From positions 17,647-81,646 of the forward strand of contig JAFUWG010000022.1 of NCBI GenBank assembly GCA_017483605.1: a stretch of DNA of 64,000 bases. Direction: 5' to 3'. Shown piece after piece: positions 16,885 through 58,291 of this stretch. Each line of letters starts with the position of its first letter. Within the stretch, counting starts at the first letter, position 1. The stretch is from Bacteroidaceae bacterium. Its GTDB lineage: Bacteria > Bacteroidota > Bacteroidia > Bacteroidales > Bacteroidaceae. The position numbers were made by a program, and so were the translations under genes. Under the pieces are notes generated by a model. That model saw nothing but the letters and a program-made list of their open reading frames with translations, did no database searches and was not told the DNA's origin.

Positions 16885-18060
16885 TCATTTAAACAACTCT
16901 GCCAACTTCGTGCGGAGGTTCTCGCCTCGGGCATCGTTGTTGGAGACGATGACACGCGCATCCTTGTCGAGCAGATAGACGGTGGGGTAGAACTGCACCT
17001 TGTAGAGTTTGGCAATGCCTTTGTCGCCGTCGATGTCATTAGGCCAAGGAGTCTGTTCTTCCTCAAGGGCTTTCAGCCAGTCTGCCTCTCGCTGGTCAGC
17101 AGAGATGGAGACAATCTGGAAGCCTTTGTTTTTATATAGTTCGTACTGAGCCTTGAAGTTGGGGATTTCCTTGCGGCAGGGTCCGCACCATGATGCCCAG
17201 AAGTCGAGCAGCACGTATCGGTTCTTCTGGCAGATGTCGTAGAGGTTCAGTTTCTCGCCAGTGGCATGGTCGGTGAACTCGAAATTAGGCATGGGAGCCT
17301 CCGTCGTCATCGGTACGACCCGCTCAGCGACCACCTTGCCGTAGAAACTCTCCTTCACCTCGGGGGCAAACTGCTCATAGATAGGGAGTTGCTCCGTGGT
17401 GAGGTAACTGTAGTTGGTCGTCATGAGGAAAGGACCCATCCAGTTGTCGCTGTTGTTCGCAATGGCTGTGCTGATGGTGGTAGAGGCAAGGTTGAAGAAG
17501 TCGTGCTCGTCTTGTGCAAACTTCTTGTATTCGGGCGTCAGCGTGAGTGCCTTGTAGGCTTCAGAGTCCCGTCCGCCAGCGGCAGCCAGTTTGTCGAGAA
17601 TCTCCTTATTGTCAGTGTGGTACTTCTCGTAGGCTTTGTTCAGGGCATCGCGGTCGGGACGTTGAGCCACATAGCAGTCGTGAGTGGGGGAGTCCTTCAC
17701 TTCCAGGTTGTCGAAGCCCATAGCCTTCTTGCCGTCCCCTGCGGTGTCGAGATGCACGTCGGCATTCAGTGTAGCCTGCTCGCCATTGCCAATCGCCACG
17801 ATGGTGCCGCCGTAGGCATCCACCACGCTGATGCGGTAGCCCCTTGGCTCTGTCGCGTCCCATGCGAATTTAGCCTTCCCGTTCTGAATCTCCGCCACTT
17901 GGATGGGTTTCTCTTCTTCGTAGGTGCCTGCCAAGGCGATGGACAGTTTCGTGCCGTCTTGCAGCCCCTTCATGTTTACATTCACGCTGGTGTTTTGTGC
18001 ATACGCTCCCATGCCCCATGCAGAGAGGAACGCCGTGCAGATTGCAAAAATCTTCTTCAT
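16885..18060 (-). CDS. TlpA/ResA-like thioredoxin with DUF4369 domain (end of locus 2)
   Basis: Second exported TlpA-like protein, 391 residues, paralogous to the gene it faces. Signal peptide to about residue 22 (GAYAQ), DUF4369 domain (about 24-125), a longer helical linker with many charged residues, then a thioredoxin domain with FWASWCGPC, C292 and C295, and QFYPTVYLLDKDARV as the cis-Pro segment. No lipobox Cys follows the signal, so it is probably soluble in the periplasm, unlike its partner. It follows the SusCD-DUF4843-PKD-like genes on the same strand, but a 278-base gap with a hairpin element and its own TACCTTTG promoter separates it, so it can be transcribed on its own. Confidence 0.9.
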   Translation of the reverse strand: MKKIFAICTAFLSAWGMGAYAQNTSVNVNMKGLQDGTKLSIALAGTYEEEKPIQVAEIQNGKAKFAWDATEPRGYRISVVDAYGGTIVAIGNGEQATLNADVHLDTAGDGKKAMGFDNLEVKDSPTHDCYVAQRPDRDALNKAYEKYHTDNKEILDKLAAAGGRDSEAYKALTLTPEYKKFAQDEHDFFNLASTTISTAIANNSDNWMGPFLMTTNYSYLTTEQLPIYEQFAPEVKESFYGKVVAERVVPMTTEAPMPNFEFTDHATGEKLNLYDICQKNRYVLLDFWASWCGPCRKEIPNFKAQYELYKNKGFQIVSISADQREADWLKALEEEQTPWPNDIDGDKGIAKLYKVQFYPTVYLLDKDARVIVSNNDARGENLRTKLAELFK

Positions 18061-18191: not shown

Positions 18192-18267
18192 CCCTCGTCT
18201 CGTATCAATTCATGTACGGGTGTTGTATGATTACAATACCCCGACATGAATTGATACGCATCGAGGG
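18192..18267. repeat. Long hairpin element, copy 1 (conserved 28-base centre)
   Basis: A 15-base perfect inverted repeat (18201-18215 with 18244-18258) continues after three mismatches into a further 6-base pair block (CCCTCG 18192-18197 with 18262-18267). The 28-base centre (18216-18243) can itself fold nearly fully. The element is closely similar to 55007-55102, with two compensated base pairs in the stem. Homology on the left side extends to about 18183 (TACGTCGTT). It fills the gap between the PKD-like gene and the TlpA-like gene. The stem is so long that it yields open frames on both strands, which are not genes. Confidence 0.85.
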
Positions 18268-18338: not shown

Positions 18339-19982
18339 TCAATAAAGCGTTGTGTGGGTTGAATACTCAAAGGCGAAGACCTTGCCGAACTGGTCGTCGA
18401 CGAGGGTCATGCCTTCCTGCCCCGGGGCAAAGTCAGAGGTCTGATAGCCGCCCGACGTGGGGTCGAACAGGGCGTGATAGACCTTGCCCGTGTGGGTCGT
18501 CTCGTTCCATGTGGCGACATACACCACGTGTCCGCCCGTAGGCCATCCGCCCGTGGGGAGGGTGGAGATGCAAGTGATTTGCTCGTCGGCAGGGAACGTT
18601 TCGAGGAGGTTGGCAGCCGTCCGCCCCGAGGTGTAAGCCCACGAATAGACCTTGTTGCCGACGGTATAGAAGATGGCAGAGCCGATGCTATAGACGTAGT
18701 GCTCCGCCTGCTCAATCTCCGCCAGCATGCCGTTGAGCCGCGTGCGTTGGGTGCAGAGGTTGCCGTTATCGACAGCATTGAAGAAATAGACGATGTTCAG
18801 GTAGGTGTTGCCGTCCGCCTCTCGGGTGATGAGGATGGCGTCGCCGCTGTTGCCCTGACCGTAGTAGAGAAGTTCGCTGCCCGTGCCGATGTCGGTGTAG
18901 TTGAATGGACTGTCGGCAGAGGCGGGGAGGAACTGCGAGAGGGCAGTGCCACGCGAGAAATAGGGTCGGAGTCCACGGTTCTTCTTGTCGAAGACACACT
19001 GGAACGAGTTGATGGCACCCTCCACGCCGTAGTAGTTAGAGCGAGTGCCGTAGGGCAGATAGGGGTAGAGGTCGTAGTCGCCAGGCAGAGCCACGGGGAA
19101 CTTGCGGTTCGCCTCGTTGGGCGAGTAGAGGCAGTAGAACTTCCCGTCGTTGATGAGAAAGTCGGCGCTGTTCACGTTGGCAAACGCCTCGGGGTGGATG
19201 CGGTCGGGCACGTTGTAGAAAAGTTCCTCATTCTTGTCCATCGTCGCCAAGCCCACAGGACTGACACGGCGCAGTTCCTCCGTGGTGGCGATGTAGTACC
19301 AGAGCGGGTTGTAGCCCGTGCCCGTTGACATGAAGAGCGTGACAGGCTCTCCCCTGATGGGGTCGTCGGCGTTGTATCGAGTCCAGAGGTTTCGTTCGTG
19401 ATAGTCGCCGAAGATGAGGGCATCCACCGTGCCGAACGCGTCGATGTCCACCAGCCCGTCCTGATTCAGTTCGAGGGCATAGACCCCGTTAGGGATGGAA
19501 CCCGAGGCGTTGACGTTGAAGTAGTTGCCGAAGTTGATTTGCACCGTCTCCTTGATGCCATAGACCGTGTCCTCCGCTTGGAAATAGATGCGGTGCATGC
19601 CCGCAGGAAGGTCACACTTGTAGTAGAGGTCCTTCGTGCGGCAGATGGTGTCGGCAGGAGGATAGGAAGTCGTGTTGCCCACTTCAATGGCCGTGTACGG
19701 GTTGTCGATGACGAGCCATCGGTAGGCAAGGTGCTCGGGATAGGCGTATCTCACCCCCGGAATCTGGAACGTGTAGATGGAATCCACATACCACGTGCTG
19801 AACGTCTGCAACTGAGCCAGATAGATGCCCGTCGTGTCAATCTCAATCCTGTAGCCCGCCAGTTCCTCCTCAGAGGGGTAGGCGTAGTTCGTGTCGTCGT
19901 CCACACAGGAAGTCAATCCCCCCGTCCCCCACAGGGCGAGGGCAACCGCCGCGAGGGCAGATAGATTCTTGAAGGTTTTCAT
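18339..19982 (-). CDS. PKD-like family surface lipoprotein (locus 2)
   Basis: A 547-residue lipoprotein of the Bacteroidota PKD-like family found after SusCD and DUF4843 genes. The lipobox is LTSC with Cys near residue 26, followed by acidic VDDDTNYAYP, which fits surface export of lipoproteins. The N-terminal third has a PKD-like Ig fold (IYTFQIPG to YFQAEDTVYGIKETVQINFG), and the C-terminal part holds repeated beta-propeller-like strands with YYGQGNSGDAILITRE and AIFYTVGNKVYSWAY. It stands where SusE/SusF proteins stand in other loci, so a surface ligand-binding role is likely by position. No catalytic residues are evident. It lies 12 bases after the DUF4843 gene and is the last gene of that close set. 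Confidence 0.83.
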   Translation of the reverse strand: MKTFKNLSALAAVALALWGTGGLTSCVDDDTNYAYPSEEELAGYRIEIDTTGIYLAQLQTFSTWYVDSIYTFQIPGVRYAYPEHLAYRWLVIDNPYTAIEVGNTTSYPPADTICRTKDLYYKCDLPAGMHRIYFQAEDTVYGIKETVQINFGNYFNVNASGSIPNGVYALELNQDGLVDIDAFGTVDALIFGDYHERNLWTRYNADDPIRGEPVTLFMSTGTGYNPLWYYIATTEELRRVSPVGLATMDKNEELFYNVPDRIHPEAFANVNSADFLINDGKFYCLYSPNEANRKFPVALPGDYDLYPYLPYGTRSNYYGVEGAINSFQCVFDKKNRGLRPYFSRGTALSQFLPASADSPFNYTDIGTGSELLYYGQGNSGDAILITREADGNTYLNIVYFFNAVDNGNLCTQRTRLNGMLAEIEQAEHYVYSIGSAIFYTVGNKVYSWAYTSGRTAANLLETFPADEQITCISTLPTGGWPTGGHVVYVATWNETTHTGKVYHALFDPTSGGYQTSDFAPGQEGMTLVDDQFGKVFAFEYSTHTTLY

Positions 19983-27191: not shown

Positions 27192-27264
27192 AAAAGTGGT
27201 CTGAGTCACACCGCCCGAGTGGTGTGACTCAGACCGCCTTGGTGGTGTGACTCAGACCACTTTT
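27192..27264. repeat. Three evenly spaced near-palindromic 15-base boxes
   Basis: Boxes at 27198-27212, 27221-27235 and 27244-27258 follow GGTsTGAsTCAsACC (s = C or G); boxes 2 and 3 are identical and box 1 is their reverse complement. Starts are exactly 23 bases apart. Because box 1 is inverted, the outer two also form a 21-base perfect inverted repeat (27192-27212 with 27244-27264). They lie upstream of the POT transporter promoter. Confidence 0.85.
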
Positions 27265-52060: not shown

Positions 52061-54988
52061 ATGAAAAAGCATTTACTGACGATTTTAACCCTATTAGGAT
52101 TCAGTGCAGCCACTTACGCACAGACAGAACAAACCGAATTGAGCACCAGCGAACTGACGGCTCTTTACAAGACGCAGGCTCGCAATTGGGGCAGCATCCA
52201 CGACCCCTCTGTTGTTTGGGACTCCAACACCCAGACCTTCTACATCTATGGCTCCCACTATGCAGGAGTCAAGACCAAGAATTTCAATAGTTACACCAAC
52301 ATCTCCAACTATTACAGCGGCAGCATTTCCTACAACAATGCCTACCGTGCCTTTCTTTCCAATCCGACCCATACCGTCAAGCGTTGTCTTCCTGGCAGCA
52401 CCACTGAGGAAGAAGTCACCCTTGGCTCTTTCGATGCAGGGGCATTTGCCTCCATCTACAGCACGGGTGGGGCAGCGGAGTGGGTGAGAGGCTGCCAATG
52501 GGCACCCGACCTTGTCTATAACCCCAACACAGGCAAGTGGAACTACTATCTGAGTATCAACGGCGACAACTGGGCATCCGTCATCGTTCTCATGACAAGC
52601 GACAGCCCCGAAGGTCCATTCACCTACGAAGCGCCCATCATTTTCGGCGGCTTCAACAACCAGAGTTACACCGTTGGCAACGCCTCCAAGAAAGTCAACT
52701 ATAAAGACACCGACCTTGAATTAGTGCTTGGCTCACTTTCTTCATTGCCAGCACGTTACAATGTCGGCAAGTCTTGGGGCGACTACTATCCCAACTGCAT
52801 TGACCCTTGCGTCTTCTTCGACGAAGAAGGCGAAATGTGGATGTCCTACGGCTCATGGTCAGGCGGCATTTTCATCATCAAACTCGACAAGAACACCGGC
52901 CTTCGCGATTACACCTACACCTATAGCGGCACAGCCACCAGCGCCAGCAAGTCCGCCACCAGCGATGCCTATTTTGGCAAGAAGATAGCAGGCGGAGCCT
53001 ATGTCAGTGGCGAAGGCTCTTATATTCAGCACATTGGCGATTATTACTACCTCTTCATCAGTTATGGCGGTTTTGCTCCCAATGGAGGCTACGAGATGCG
53101 AATCTTCCGTTCCGAGAAGCCCGATGACTCCTACAAGGATGCAGCAGGCACCAGCCCCATTGAGACCAATTACCGGCTCAACTATGGCCCCAAAGCCACT
53201 ACCAACATGGGCGTGAAACTCATCGGAGCCATGAACCACTGGGGTTTGATGACCACAGGCGAAACAGCCCAGGGCCACAACTCCGCTTGTCAGGACGACC
53301 TTGGCCGTACATTCCTTGTGTGCCACACCAAGTTCAACGACGGAACCGCAGGCCATCAAATCAGAGCCTATCAACTGTATCTCAACAAGTTCGGTTGGCT
53401 CTGCACAGCCCCCTTCCAGTTCAATGGCGAGACCACGACCGATGCGACCCTTGCCACCACCCAGCCCTATTCAGCCGCCGATGTCGAAGGCGACTACCAT
53501 GTCATCCTTCACCCCTACAAACTTGACCATAACAACATGGAAGAGTCCACCCCGTCCCTCATCCATCTTTCAGCCGACGGCAAGGTGACAGGCGACTACA
53601 CTGGCTCGTGGTCTTACACCGACGAAGGGGCATCCTACTTCCAAATCAAACTCAAGGTCACCTCTTCCAGCACCTACACCTTCAATGGCGTTGTCGTCGA
53701 GCAGACCCTCGAAGGCTCCAACGCCAAAGCCCTCTGCTTCACCACCGTTTGTACAGGCAACGGCACCATGCAAGGCGTTCCCTGCTGGGGCTACAAACTC
53801 CAGCCGCAGTATGCCATTGCCTACAACTACCAGAAGTACAGCGGCACCTATTTCAAGACATCCCTCGTCTCCAACATCTCCAAGAATGTAGAACTCATGT
53901 TCGACCCCGAAGAGAATGTCGAACTGACATGGACATCCTCCCAGCCCGATGTCGTCAGCAACACCGGCAAATACAACGCTCCCGAAGAGCGTACCAGCCT
54001 CACGCTGACGGCACGCCTCTCGTGCGGCAACTATTATTGGGCACACGACTACACCGCTTCAGCCCGAGCCGCCACCGCCGTGGAGGGTGACCAGACCACA
54101 GGGCTTGTCGCCTTCTACAATTTCGACGAGACCCCCACCTACAACCAGTACAACGCCGAGTCCCGTGCCACCTATGGCCGTTCCAGCACCTCTTCCGGCA
54201 TCGTGCCGACCCTTGGCAACGACTGGGCACGTTTTGGCAAGGTCGTTCACCAATACTTCGGAGCCAATGGCGTCAACAGTTACACCCGCATCCCGAATCC
54301 GTTGGCTGACCAAGCCGACTTGGAAGGCTTCACCGTCAGCCTTTGGGTGAAGCGAACCGATGCCAACCTTTGGGATGCCCTCTGGAGTTTCTTCAACGGT
54401 GCCACCGCCGGAGTCAGCGGCGCCCGTCTCTACTTCACTGGCAACAGTTACCTTGGCTTCAACGACAACAACGGCAATTGGTTCGACGTCAACCATCCCG
54501 ACACCAAGGTCATCAGCAAAATCTCAGTAGGGGAGTGGCACCTTCTCACCGTCACCTACTCCAAGGCAAACGGCTATATGCTCTACCTCGACGGCTCCAA
54601 GTATCTCAGTTCGCAACTCAACTACACAGGCAGCGTCTCTGCCGACGAGTTCGACCGCAGCCTCGTGCTCGATTTCGTCAAGTCCGCCAAGTATTTCTAC
54701 CTCGGCCTTGGCTCCTTCTGGGGTTCGGCAGATGCCTATTTCGACGACCTGATGATTTACAACCGCGAACTTTCAGCCGACGACGTGGCAGGGCTCAACA
54801 CCCTCCTGAATCGTGTCAACAATTTTGACACCAACATCGCCGATTGCATCACAGAGATAGCCGTCGACGAATCCGCAGCCTCCGTCCCCGCCTACAAGCA
54901 GGGCATCTACGACCTCATGGGCCGCAGAGTGGCAGTTCCGGGCAAAGGCTTCTACATCGTCAACGGCAAGAAAGTCCTCTTCAAGTAA
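52061..54988 (+). CDS. Secreted GH43 glycoside hydrolase with LamG domain and C-terminal sorting-like motif
   Basis: Exported five-bladed beta-propeller glycosidase, 975 residues, likely acting on arabinan, arabinoxylan or related plant polysaccharide. The signal peptide ends near TYAQ (residue 21). The GH43 triad is readable: D48 in IHDPSVV (base), D248 in CIDPCVFFD (pKa modulator) and E318 in VSGEGSYI (acid); WAPDLVY (about 147-153) is another family motif. A beta domain follows to about 660, then a LamG/concanavalin-like domain (about 680-905: GLVAFYNFDE, FTVSLWVKR, WHLLTVTYSK). The C-terminus, GIYDLMGRRV to GFYIVNGKKVLFK, matches the end of the 25640 protein. No SusCD pair is cotranscribed with it. 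Exact substrate unknown. Confidence 0.9.
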   Translation: MKKHLLTILTLLGFSAATYAQTEQTELSTSELTALYKTQARNWGSIHDPSVVWDSNTQTFYIYGSHYAGVKTKNFNSYTNISNYYSGSISYNNAYRAFLSNPTHTVKRCLPGSTTEEEVTLGSFDAGAFASIYSTGGAAEWVRGCQWAPDLVYNPNTGKWNYYLSINGDNWASVIVLMTSDSPEGPFTYEAPIIFGGFNNQSYTVGNASKKVNYKDTDLELVLGSLSSLPARYNVGKSWGDYYPNCIDPCVFFDEEGEMWMSYGSWSGGIFIIKLDKNTGLRDYTYTYSGTATSASKSATSDAYFGKKIAGGAYVSGEGSYIQHIGDYYYLFISYGGFAPNGGYEMRIFRSEKPDDSYKDAAGTSPIETNYRLNYGPKATTNMGVKLIGAMNHWGLMTTGETAQGHNSACQDDLGRTFLVCHTKFNDGTAGHQIRAYQLYLNKFGWLCTAPFQFNGETTTDATLATTQPYSAADVEGDYHVILHPYKLDHNNMEESTPSLIHLSADGKVTGDYTGSWSYTDEGASYFQIKLKVTSSSTYTFNGVVVEQTLEGSNAKALCFTTVCTGNGTMQGVPCWGYKLQPQYAIAYNYQKYSGTYFKTSLVSNISKNVELMFDPEENVELTWTSSQPDVVSNTGKYNAPEERTSLTLTARLSCGNYYWAHDYTASARAATAVEGDQTTGLVAFYNFDETPTYNQYNAESRATYGRSSTSSGIVPTLGNDWARFGKVVHQYFGANGVNSYTRIPNPLADQADLEGFTVSLWVKRTDANLWDALWSFFNGATAGVSGARLYFTGNSYLGFNDNNGNWFDVNHPDTKVISKISVGEWHLLTVTYSKANGYMLYLDGSKYLSSQLNYTGSVSADEFDRSLVLDFVKSAKYFYLGLGSFWGSADAYFDDLMIYNRELSADDVAGLNTLLNRVNNFDTNIADCITEIAVDESAASVPAYKQGIYDLMGRRVAVPGKGFYIVNGKKVLFK

Positions 54989-55006: not shown

Positions 55007-55102
55007 CTACGTCGTTACCTCGATGCGTATGAATTCGTGTACGGGTGTTGTATGATTACAACTCCTCGACACGAATTCATACGCATCGAGGTAACGACAT
55101 AG
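55007..55102. repeat. Long hairpin element, copy 2 (conserved 28-base centre)
   Basis: Arms 55007-55040 and 55069-55102 are 34 bases each with one mismatch, around a 28-base centre that differs from copy 1 at 18216-18243 in only three bases, all in its right half. The stem differs from copy 1 at 55031/55078 and 55037/55072, both changes compensated. It begins 18 bases after the GH43 stop and has no T run. The rest of the 393-base gap up to 55381 is AT-rich and contains only a promoter. Confidence 0.88.
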
Positions 55103-55381: not shown

Positions 55382-58291
55382 ATGTTGTATAACTTTCAGA
55401 GGAAAAAACTGTGCAGACATCTCTTGGTAGGAGGTGCGCTGTGTGTTGCAGGTTTGGGAGTTTACTCCTGCTCTGACACGTATGACCTTGATACTGAACA
55501 GCCATCCAACCTGAACAGTATCTATGGCTACATGGAAGACCAGGGAAATTTCAAAACGTATCTGCGACTGATTGAAGATCTTGGGCAAGGAGAAATACTT
55601 GCCAAGACCGGTAGTAAAACGATGTTTATTGCCGACGACGACGCGTTCACTCGCTTCTTCGCTTCTAACAAGTGGGGCGTGAGGAGTTACGAACAGTTGT
55701 CTCTTGCTCAGAAGAAACTTCTGCTCAATTCGGCAATGATTGACAACCCCTATTCTACCTCCATGCTCTCCACGGCAGAAGGTCCAGTCAAGGGTGAGGT
55801 TTGTCGCCGTTCATCGTCACTGACACTCTACGATTCAGTGCTCGTTGTTCACGCCAACTCGGCTGCTGCCGACGACATTCTGCCGCACAACGACCGCTTC
55901 AACGAGATTCGTGCCAACCACGACACCATCGTGCTCTACACCGACGCATCCAATGCGGCTCCAATGGTTCACTTCAACTACAAGTTCGTGGCATCCAACA
56001 AGTTGGAGAGCACCGACATCGACTTCCTTTACAACCAGACTCCTGGCACACGCGGCAATGACGACGTGTATGTGAACAACGCAAAGGTCATCGATGCCAA
56101 CATTTTCTGTAAGAACGGATTCATCCACAAGGTGGACGAGGTGATTCTTCCACTCGACAACATGGCTGAAATCATCCGCAAAGACCCTGAGACCAAGATT
56201 TTCAGCGGACTGGTAGAGCGTTTCGCTGCTCCTGACTACACAAGGGCACTCACCGATGCCTACAACGTCAACAAGGGCGCCAGCATCGACTCCGTCTTCA
56301 ACAAGCGCTACTTCTCCGACCGCTCTGCAGGTTCAACCCGCGAGAATGACCAGGCTTACGACACCGACAAGAACGGCGGCACATTCGACGCATCTCTGAA
56401 GTTCGACCCAGGATGGAACGGCTACATGCCACTCTCTGGTGACCCACGCGATGCCATGATGGAAGACCTCGCCGTCATGCTCGTCCCCACCGACTCTGCC
56501 ATGAACGAATGGTGGAACAACGGCGGCGGTAAGGTGGTTCAGGACTACTACGGCACCATCGAGAGAACACCTAACTCTGTGCTTGACGACCTCATCCGCG
56601 TCAACCAACTTATCTCCCTCGTTGCCTCTGTGCCATCACGCTTCGAGGACGTGCTCAACGATGCCAACGAGCCTCTCGGCATCACCGAGGCTGACGTCAA
56701 GAGCGTCACACTCGGCTGTAACGGTGTGATTTACAAGACCAACAAAGTCTTCGCACCAACCTCCTATTCTTCAGTCCTCTTCCCAGCCGTTATCGATACG
56801 ACCAACTTCAAGATTATCGAGAACGCCATCAGCAACTTGGACTACGATAAGTACCTCAACTCAATGGTTTCCGAGTACGTGTTCATCATCCCAACCAACG
56901 ATGGTCTTCTCTCTTACGTTGACCCCGTGTCTTACGGACAGACCACCTCACAACTTTGGGAGTTCCACTTCGACGCAACCAAGTCAAAGGCACAGCGTAT
57001 CTACGCCGACGTTTACAAGTGCAACCTCAATGAGACCACAGGCAAGTGGGAAAAGGATGGCGACAAGGTGTTCACCATTCAGAACCAGAGCGTTACATCC
57101 ACTTCTACCGCACTGAACAACCGTCTCGAAGACCTCCTCGACAACATCATCGTCACGACAGGCTATGAGGCAGGCAAGAAATACTATCGCACCAAGGGTA
57201 ACACCTTCGTTCGCATCGACGGCATCACCGAAGGCAGCCACGTTTATGGAGCATTCCAGGCAGAACGTGACTACCCGCTCACCGTCCAGAAGGTTTACAA
57301 CATGGAGAACGGTCACGCCCTCGTGGTGGACGGTCCTGTGATGGGTTCACGCAAGTCTGTTGCCATGACCCTTTCAGAGAATCCAGACTTCTCCGAGTTC
57401 CTTGGCATCATGCAGCAATGCGGTGCCCTTGCCAACAGCAACGGTAAGGATAAGTGGACAGCCGTAGCAAGTGCGGAAGGTTATGGCAACCTCTTCAACC
57501 TCAAGACCTACGGTGATGTCGGTGCCGAGGACAGACCCGCTTCCGGTTCTGCCACTCAGAAGGCTACTTACATCCTCAACAACTACCACTACACCGTTTA
57601 TGCTCCAACCAACGCAGCCATGCAGAAGGCTTACGACATGGGTCTCCCAAGCCTTGCTGACCTTGCCGAAGCCGAAGAGTATGATAGGGAACAGGTAGAA
57701 TCTGGCGTAGCCCTCACTTCCGACTCCGCTGCTCGTGTTCGTGAAGCCATGCTTGACTTCGTGAAGTACCACATTCAAGATAACTCCGTCTATGTGGACA
57801 GCGGCTTCGCTTCTGCTTCTTACGAGTCAGCCAAGACAGAACTGATTGCTTCTACCACCGTGGCAGAGAATGTTCCAGAGTCAAGCCTTGGCAATTACAC
57901 CATCAAGAGCAAGTCTCTGAACGCCGACGGTACCTACAACGTCATCTACTATACTGGCAAGTATTCTCCAGGTCGTCCATACAAGATTAAGGTGGATGTT
58001 TCTGCCAACGGCATGACCGTGACAGACAACATCGGTCAGACCCACAACGTCATCATGACCGACGGCATGTACAATCTCATGGCGAATGAATACTGGATTA
58101 AAGGTACAATGGCACTGACTGCCAATCCATACCAATATAATATAGATAACTCATCTTCTGTTGCTATCCATGCGATAGATGGTCCGCTCGTATATGCTGA
58201 CGGCAAGCACACCGATGCTGAGGGCAACCTCGTGCCAACCCAGTTCATATACAAGTACAAGCCTCTTACTTCAGAAGCCAAACGTCGTTAA
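55382..58291 (+). CDS. Fasciclin (FAS1)-domain surface lipoprotein, multi-domain
   Basis: A 969-residue lipoprotein with lipobox VYSC (Cys near residue 30) and acidic residues right after it (SDTYDLD), which favours surface display. Three FAS1-like units are visible at about 50-240 (NFKTYLRLIEDLG, TMFIADDDAFTRFF), 270-500 (LAVMLVPTDSAMNEWW, YVFIIPTNDGLLSYV) and 660-950 (FSEFLGIMQQCG, YTVYAPTNAAMQKAY). FAS1 domains bind proteins or sugars in adhesion. It opens an operon with SusC, SusD and a second fasciclin protein, at the place where other loci carry SusE/F or enzymes. No hydrolase motif. Ligand unknown. Confidence 0.87.
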   Translation: MLYNFQRKKLCRHLLVGGALCVAGLGVYSCSDTYDLDTEQPSNLNSIYGYMEDQGNFKTYLRLIEDLGQGEILAKTGSKTMFIADDDAFTRFFASNKWGVRSYEQLSLAQKKLLLNSAMIDNPYSTSMLSTAEGPVKGEVCRRSSSLTLYDSVLVVHANSAAADDILPHNDRFNEIRANHDTIVLYTDASNAAPMVHFNYKFVASNKLESTDIDFLYNQTPGTRGNDDVYVNNAKVIDANIFCKNGFIHKVDEVILPLDNMAEIIRKDPETKIFSGLVERFAAPDYTRALTDAYNVNKGASIDSVFNKRYFSDRSAGSTRENDQAYDTDKNGGTFDASLKFDPGWNGYMPLSGDPRDAMMEDLAVMLVPTDSAMNEWWNNGGGKVVQDYYGTIERTPNSVLDDLIRVNQLISLVASVPSRFEDVLNDANEPLGITEADVKSVTLGCNGVIYKTNKVFAPTSYSSVLFPAVIDTTNFKIIENAISNLDYDKYLNSMVSEYVFIIPTNDGLLSYVDPVSYGQTTSQLWEFHFDATKSKAQRIYADVYKCNLNETTGKWEKDGDKVFTIQNQSVTSTSTALNNRLEDLLDNIIVTTGYEAGKKYYRTKGNTFVRIDGITEGSHVYGAFQAERDYPLTVQKVYNMENGHALVVDGPVMGSRKSVAMTLSENPDFSEFLGIMQQCGALANSNGKDKWTAVASAEGYGNLFNLKTYGDVGAEDRPASGSATQKATYILNNYHYTVYAPTNAAMQKAYDMGLPSLADLAEAEEYDREQVESGVALTSDSAARVREAMLDFVKYHIQDNSVYVDSGFASASYESAKTELIASTTVAENVPESSLGNYTIKSKSLNADGTYNVIYYTGKYSPGRPYKIKVDVSANGMTVTDNIGQTHNVIMTDGMYNLMANEYWIKGTMALTANPYQYNIDNSSSVAIHAIDGPLVYADGKHTDAEGNLVPTQFIYKYKPLTSEAKRR

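Follow-up and report, generated by a model that had tools for sequence, protein, structure and literature searches.

A family of intergenic palindromic repeats in a Bacteroidaceae genome and its three-palindrome layout, found also in families of different sequence

Background

To our knowledge, what moves repeated extragenic palindromes and whether they have any function are mostly open questions outside the RAYT-linked cases. A stretch of 64,000 nucleotides from a Bacteroidaceae bacterium (the window) raises both questions with two distant hairpins, which a preliminary description had joined by a conserved centre and by stem changes that keep pairing, naming as candidates a mobile repeat moved by a REP/IS200-type transposase, a recombination site and a 3'-end RNA element. 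The window is part of contig 3 of a draft genome (the own genome) of 3,060,871 bases in 56 contigs, which is 81.5% complete.

Results

The two hairpins of the window

Both hairpins were confirmed as inverted repeats with a 4-nt loop. The arms of copy 1 (18192-18227 and 18232-18267) are 83% complementary and those of copy 2 (55007-55052 and 55057-55102) are 89% complementary. The features of the two copies and their neighbours are as follows.

16885..18060, - strand: gene with its 5' end facing copy 1; AhpC/TSA, thioredoxin-like
18193..18220, + strand: copy 1, palindromic unit A (inverted repeat and alignment)
18215..18244, + strand: copy 1, central palindrome B with loop TGAT at 18228-18231 (inverted repeat and alignment)
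18239..18266, + strand: copy 1, palindromic unit C (inverted repeat and alignment)
18339..19982, - strand: gene with its 3' end facing copy 1; the sole match is PKD-like and below the Pfam cut-off
52061..54988, + strand: gene with GH43-type glycosidase domains; copy 2 begins 18 nt past its 3' end
55007..55017, + strand: copy 2, left outer tail CTACGTCGTTA, common to many copies
55018..55045, + strand: copy 2, palindromic unit A, the left arm (columns 13-40 of the gapless alignment A1; inverted-repeat arm)
55040..55069, + strand: copy 2, central palindrome B with loop TGAT at 55053-55056 (palindrome-centre peak at alignment column 49.5)
55064..55091, + strand: copy 2, palindromic unit C, the right arm and an inverted copy of A (centre peak at column 72.5)
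55092..55102, + strand: copy 2, right outer tail, which complements the left tail bar one pair
55382..58291, + strand: gene downstream of copy 2; partial fasciclin-domain match

The centres are near-identical, as had been claimed, with three differences over 32 nt, and the 76-nt cores differ at 12 positions. Both named pair changes were found at their places, C18206-G18253 in copy 1 versus G55031-C55078 in copy 2 and A18212-T18247 versus G55037-C55072. A further change from G-T in copy 1 to G-C in copy 2 was also correct, but the adjacent T-A pair has become T-T in copy 2, and therefore pairing is not better throughout in that copy. Copy 1 contains a 3x3 internal loop (TCT versus CAT). The RNA fold z-scores of the two hairpins were -17.1 and -9.1, with none of 200 shuffles as stable in either case; neither fold is due to chance. 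No match to Rfam at the gathering score was found in the window, and a scan around copy 2 for an intrinsic terminator (a GC-rich hairpin followed by a T-run) gave none.

Copy number and spread of family 1

The preliminary description would have been undone by a genome holding these two copies alone, and the genome search that it proposed gave a different picture. A 23-nt core pattern with up to 3 mismatches had 19 matches in the own genome and none in the reversed control, while an arm pattern had 82 matches against 2 in the control. In all, 41 full copies of the family to which the window hairpins belong (family 1) were collected from the own genome, and 2 copies were found in the congener G007. 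The alignment and the covariance model were based on 42 full elements, 41 own and 1 of G007, after one of 43 rows, an extra arm match within the L094 element, was removed; a half element at C45:13102 was not counted. The covariance model returned 83 own-genome matches, namely the 41 copies on both strands and a weak extra match (C52:76100), a recovery that is largely circular because the model was built from the same 42 elements. Among 44 congeners, searched with stricter filters, it matched only G007, where a second, weaker element lies at C49:38961.

Of 150 genomes in the relatives set, only two, the own genome and G007, had the arm pattern. In a public genome set, one arm was matched on 14 contigs, one of these being the G007 contig; the other 13 were rejected as members, as the second arm was absent (10-16 mismatches) and they look like chance. 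A search of copy 2 for phage or plasmid carriage gave no match, and viral contigs contained neither an exact match to the family-1 arm pattern nor one to the two-unit patterns of families 2 and 3 (see below).

Several observations were made on individual copies. Contig C22 (135 kb) holds 8 of the 41 own copies, above the expectation for an even spread. Some 770 bp separate the half element (L064 300-350, C45:13102), which is cut off after TTTGTT, from a full element whose outer tail is similar. The right flanks of L090 and L118 are alike beyond the element for about 139 nt at 90% identity, possibly as a longer version of the element or a duplication, and L106 has by eye only the first stretch of this common flank. 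L087, L093, L109, L112 and L127 form a subfamily in which ACGGG-like words stand to either side of the centre and the short outer flank is similar. A gene for a 70-aa protein precedes L093, L112 and L127, and the protein at L127 has no Pfam match.

Anatomy and alternative folds

All 42 elements were aligned over 98 columns without a gap, and the pattern match placed both arms at exactly the same offset in 25 of them. Four 6-nt words, most commonly CCTCGA, CACGGG, CCTCGA and TCGAGG (the second is TCGAGG in some copies), delimit two 28-nt units in inverted order. The outer words pair at 5 or more of 6 positions in 29 of 42 elements, and therefore the whole element folds as one hairpin; in 26 of 42 there is pairing between the words of the right unit. 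In L090, L106, L114 and L118 both units self-pair and there is no outer pairing, which amounts to a pair of successive hairpins. Where TATTTTCG follows the right hairpin, a two-hairpin copy may be a terminator.

When all possible palindrome centres were compared, columns 72.5 and 49.5 were the strongest, and the left centre at column 26.5 was only the fifth strongest, behind 38 and 40. A step of 23 nt separates each of the three centres (26.5, 49.5 and 72.5) from the next. Between copies, the arms, the loop orientation and the tails form a mosaic. Family 1 is an inverted dimer of palindromes, REPIN-like in kind, whose arms are mosaic.

The outer tails occur in several versions, and the two ends of one element are often unlike, while tails such as CTACGTCGTTACC recur at many element ends. 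By eye, the ends read CTAC...GTAG, or the variants CTTC, CTAG and CTTG. A tail search gave 29 matches versus 5 in the reversed control. Only two of the 29 (C40:53102 and C52:76202) lay away from a full element, and an IS bearing family-1 tails was rejected on this count; C52:76202 coincides with a weak covariance-model match.

Pairing across copies

Pairing was evaluated in 25 long-hairpin copies (24 own, 1 of G007). Paired cells made up 77.4%, compared to 28-39% with slid partners and a mean of 74.8% in column shuffles, none of 500 shuffles being as high. Two-sided changes were found at 23 of 47 pairs versus 18.6 in the shuffles, with 9 of 500 as high. The excess over the column shuffles is small, and such shuffles ignore relatedness, so that related sequences can exceed them without structure. 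Three pairs were often unpaired, 32/67 in 11, 36/63 in 16 and 37/62 in 15 of the 25 copies.

Both elements of G007 have a counterpart with matching flank in the own genome. The own L093 and its G007 counterpart L127 have flanks with 99.7% identity across 373 nt on one side and 87.4% across 222 nt on the other. They differ at a stem position that reads A-T in L093 and A-A in L127, and the own paralogue L112 has T-A there. As for the second G007 element (L132), its flank matches by eye that of the own L099, and the two hairpins are kept.

Location relative to genes

With genes predicted by a simple codon-usage caller, none of the 41 own copies lies inside a gene. A gene 3' end is found within 120 nt of 31 of the 41 copies, and 37 have a 3' end on a side, at a median distance of 61 nt. 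Of 25 copies in gaps between genes of the same direction, 18 were nearer the 3' end, 6 were nearer the 5' end and 1 was a tie; the remaining copies lie in convergent gaps (9), divergent gaps (2) or an unclear setting (5). The 13-nt tail is overlapped by the stop codon of a gene in L091 and L095 (2 of the 41), and in 3 more copies the stop codon ends at most 3 nt from it. The earlier view that the structure concerns nucleic acid and not protein agrees with an element that is repeated, folded and absent from predicted genes, and among the candidate classes put forward, the REP-like or 3'-end reading fits best with repeats that are structured and mostly behind genes.

Other families with the same layout

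The full intergenic sequence between the same two genes that flank copy 2 was obtained from 11 congeners. Most of these sites have hairpins unlike family 1 (one, L233, has none by eye), and it was these hairpins that led to the finding of family 2 in the own genome. Altogether the own genome contains two further repeat families beside family 1, and congeners hold others; these are of unlike sequence but have a common layout, in which three palindromes are centred about 23 nt (21-24) from one another, and they are mostly downstream of genes. The unit of family 2 is CGTACCC-CTC-GGGTACG, in either orientation. At 20 loci, with at most 1 mismatch, three units at about 23-nt pitch were found in 10, two units in 7 and one in 3; more diverged units were seen by eye beside the matched ones. 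Family-2 units are present in 14 of 45 genomes, with 36 matches in the own genome, 212 in G035, 113 in G018 and 70 in G041. Family 3 is represented in the window by one array, and was seen twice more in own loci (L106 and L122).

27198..27258, + strand: family 3 array, three GGTCTGAGTCACACC-type units at 23-nt pitch, outside predicted genes (triplet scan)

This array folds at -60.6 kcal/mol (z -10.2) and lies 128 nt from a gene 3' end and 157 nt from a gene start. L119 has a single array of another unit, 444 and 532 nt from the neighbouring genes and thus not close to a 3' end, and the L122 array, 561 and 234 nt from two 3' ends, is not close either. For the array of other units at L106, the sole listed neighbour is a gene start 568 nt off.

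Since a histogram of perfect-stem hairpin centres was too insensitive and one of direct repeats was noisy, a triplet scan was adopted, whose target is a set of three 15-nt units, semi-palindromic and alike, with all pitches between 15 and 40 allowed. It was applied to 87 congener loci (383,490 bp) picked by similarity to own genes, some of which are mutually orthologous. The scan returned 23 triplets, with pitch 18 in 3, 21 in 4, 22 in 3, 23 in 11 and 24 in 2. Five shuffles together gave 1 triplet, though this control, in which single bases move inside a 60-nt range, is weak. Unrelated bacteria (12 loci, 94 kb) had 2 triplets, at pitch 15 and 30. The 20 arrays at pitch 21-24 all lie outside predicted genes, 19 of them flanked on one side by a gene 3' end, and all 15 in same-direction gaps are nearer the 3' end. 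Family 1 itself is not picked up by the triplet scan.

Ten of the 20 arrays, from ten species, occupy the orthologue of the copy-2 site (L214, L217, L219, L222, L224, L228, L230, L231, L238 and L242) and therefore do not represent ten independent places. By eye their units fall into about six groups (G034 with G035; G032 with G011; G003 with G025 and G017; G019, G026 and G040 each alone). The scan finds an array at 6 of the 11 fully extracted copy-2 sites. Another site was compared, where the own element at C22:61565 adjoins the 3' end of a conserved gene; an array was found there in none of 19 anchored congeners (20 stretches, less L391, which has no anchor), and several of them have by eye a plain T-tailed hairpin. 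The C22:61565 element is either a gain of its lineage or arrived with a rearrangement, the latter because gene order on the other side differs in many congeners.

In an unselected sample of the genus (365 kb, pitch 15-60), 5 triplets were found at pitch 22, 23, 23, 24 and 36, one being the L217 array again. Other genera of the family (351 kb) gave 5 (15, 18, 22, 46 and 51), as did other families (263 kb; 21, 31, 31, 36 and 41), and a single shuffle of the three samples gave 0, 0 and 1. Clustering at 22-24 thus appears only in the genus sample (4 triplets, compared to one at 21-24 in each of the other samples), although the numbers are small and the genus-wide pitch pattern rests on small samples. 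The three-palindrome layout itself is common to families of different sequence. Another long-hairpin repeat, GGTGAGAGGAATGTTGGGCAAACAGGCATCC-like and of a different layout, is carried by G032 and G043 (L175, L178, L388 and L390).

Search for a mover

The transposase of the REP/IS200 kind that had been proposed as a linked mover was not found beside family 1, as the lone Y1_Tnp match over the cut-off in the draft adjoins a different repeat. This gene (L020 1370-2100, contig C9) has the residues DHVH, WQ and YIRNQAEHH and is flanked by CCCTGAAGGGGCG-type and, in both orientations, AAGCCCTGAAGGGGCG-type repeats, which are another family. It resembles subclass 1.2, which is tabulated without associated structures (PMC6006769). 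Elsewhere in the same locus (L020 3090-3170), a tandem repeat of about 21 nt of ATTATTCATCGACGATGAACA type lies behind a gene.

Y1 matches in 45 genomes numbered 82 among those listed, most of them below the cut-off. The scan covered the own locus and 29 congener loci, of which L284, L285, L297 and L299 are shorter than the rest, presumably cut at contig ends. The family-2 word was found in 0 of these 30 loci, and a single arm-like word occurred in one of the 29 congener loci (L283). G035, which has 212 family-2 units, has a single, weak Y1 match; this one and three weak own matches were outside the scan. No target duplication was seen by eye in the printed flanks of elements, and no clean empty site was found at the sites compared across congeners.

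Comparison with known systems

REPINs are described as REP doublets forming hairpins in single-stranded DNA or mRNA (PMC3116915), and two inverted REP-like units forming a hairpin are what family 1 has. The two also share conserved ends, an extragenic and multicopy nature and alternative hairpin or clover-like folds (PMC3116915). They differ in that family 1 has no linked RAYT in the draft and the scanned loci, has a third, central palindrome at fixed pitch, and belongs with units whose sequence varies between congeners while the spacing stays.

Family 1 has the general properties of REPs, being short palindromes in many extragenic copies near 3' ends. Like the GTAG/CGTC-tagged REPs and BIMEs (PMC3733652), its copies are mostly behind genes, in unidirectional or convergent gaps, and form dimers. 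The ends of tagged REPs often supply a stop codon (PMC3733652), and the 2 of 41 family-1 tails overlapped by one are a likeness. In contrast, family 1 lacks the conserved 5' GTAG or CGTC tag and has three palindromes about 23 nt apart. By eye, a GTAG-type tetranucleotide is absent 5' of the hairpin foot, and GTAG occurs at the 3' side in only some copies.

The nearest account in the literature, consulted mostly outside subscription papers, was BrickBuilt of Porphyromonas gingivalis; in that literature neither the repeats themselves nor a layout of three palindromes at 23 nt was found described. BrickBuilt is likewise a Bacteroidales intergenic repeat with a 23-nt unit and predicted stem-loops, but it is made of 1 to 22.8 units in direct tandem, has a leader and a tail and spans 84-991 nt (PMC4596501). 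The repeats studied here have three palindromes in about 60-100 nt with units in either orientation, and a MITE of the BrickBuilt type (tandem 23-nt direct repeat, leader, tail and terminal inverted repeats) was set apart by description, as its anatomy differs (PMC4596501).

Discussion

The reading that we favour, with a probability of roughly 0.55, is that family 1 works in the manner of REP, REPIN or BIME elements, as a set of compact intergenic palindromic repeats that are non-coding and non-autonomous and were copied mostly behind gene 3' ends. Because the defining Y1 partner is missing, the family is likened to REPs in its working and is not filed as REPIN. Each copy has an imperfect palindrome of 28 nt, then a palindrome at the centre and then a second 28-nt palindrome in inverted order, all spaced at about 23 nt from centre to centre, so that one strand can fold as a long hairpin or as successive hairpins. 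The family would have spread by copying of hairpin DNA, probably with a copying enzyme encoded elsewhere, and arms would have been swapped, corrected or homogenised between copies. Insertion would have been mostly just behind gene 3' ends, where elements could be transcribed and either tolerated or used as a 3'-end structure; family 1 may possibly act as RNA at 3' ends. Copying, selection or both may act on shape and spacing.

Among the alternatives, correction of palindromes without selection has a real though lesser claim, since template switching or gene conversion between arms would perfect stems and imitate compensatory change. The mosaic arms, the loop and middle unit in both orientations and the A-T and A-A states of the own and G007 counterparts are consistent with it, but arm mismatches recur at the same places (32/67, 36/63 and 37/62), which correction should erase. 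Slightly less likely is a functional RNA, a bidirectional terminator or 3'-end stabiliser with pairing selected and sequence free to drift. The 3'-end location, the strong folds, the two-sided pair changes and the arrays at the same site in ten species would all suit such an RNA. However, copy 2 lacks a T-tailed terminator, several congeners have by eye a separate T-tailed hairpin beside the array, and the letters, not the pairing alone, are conserved between copies, for which selection on pairing has no need.

A true REPIN family, in which an inverted REP dimer is moved as single-stranded DNA by a RAYT (Y1 HUH) that is absent from the draft or too diverged, appears improbable. An inverted dimer in many intergenic copies near 3' ends with hairpin or clover-like folds is what it predicts, and Bacteroidetes Y1 genes of subclass 2.6 have atypical flanking structures (PMC6006769). 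It is weakened by the Y1 gene over the cut-off, with its other repeats and its likeness to a subclass without associated structures, by the absence of the family-2 word from the 30 scanned Y1 loci and by the missing 5' GTAG tag; still, with a draft 81.5% complete and three weak own matches outside the scan, together with that of G035, the absence of a linked Y1 is no proof. Least convincing is a MITE of a DDE transposon with the outer tails as terminal inverted repeats, to which the recurring tails would point. This has little to recommend it when tails come in several versions, often unlike at the two ends, when printed flanks reveal by eye no target duplication, and when all but two of the 29 tail matches belong to full elements.

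Since the differently spelled repeats of some relatives have about the same spacing, shape and spacing rather than letters may be kept, which suggests that geometry may persist while sequence turns over across the families of the genus. An unlikely but more specific proposal is that a copying or homogenising system of the genus reads the geometry, such that any three palindromes about 23 nt apart could become a family, each species would amplify its own spelling, and families would replace one another at the same gene ends.

Several families of unlike sequence with one layout in one genus, and ten species with arrays at one orthologous gene end, thus make the question of mover and function testable, with families that differ in letters and not in spacing. 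A length of 23 nt is near two turns of DNA, and the protein to seek would be one able to measure about 23 nt.
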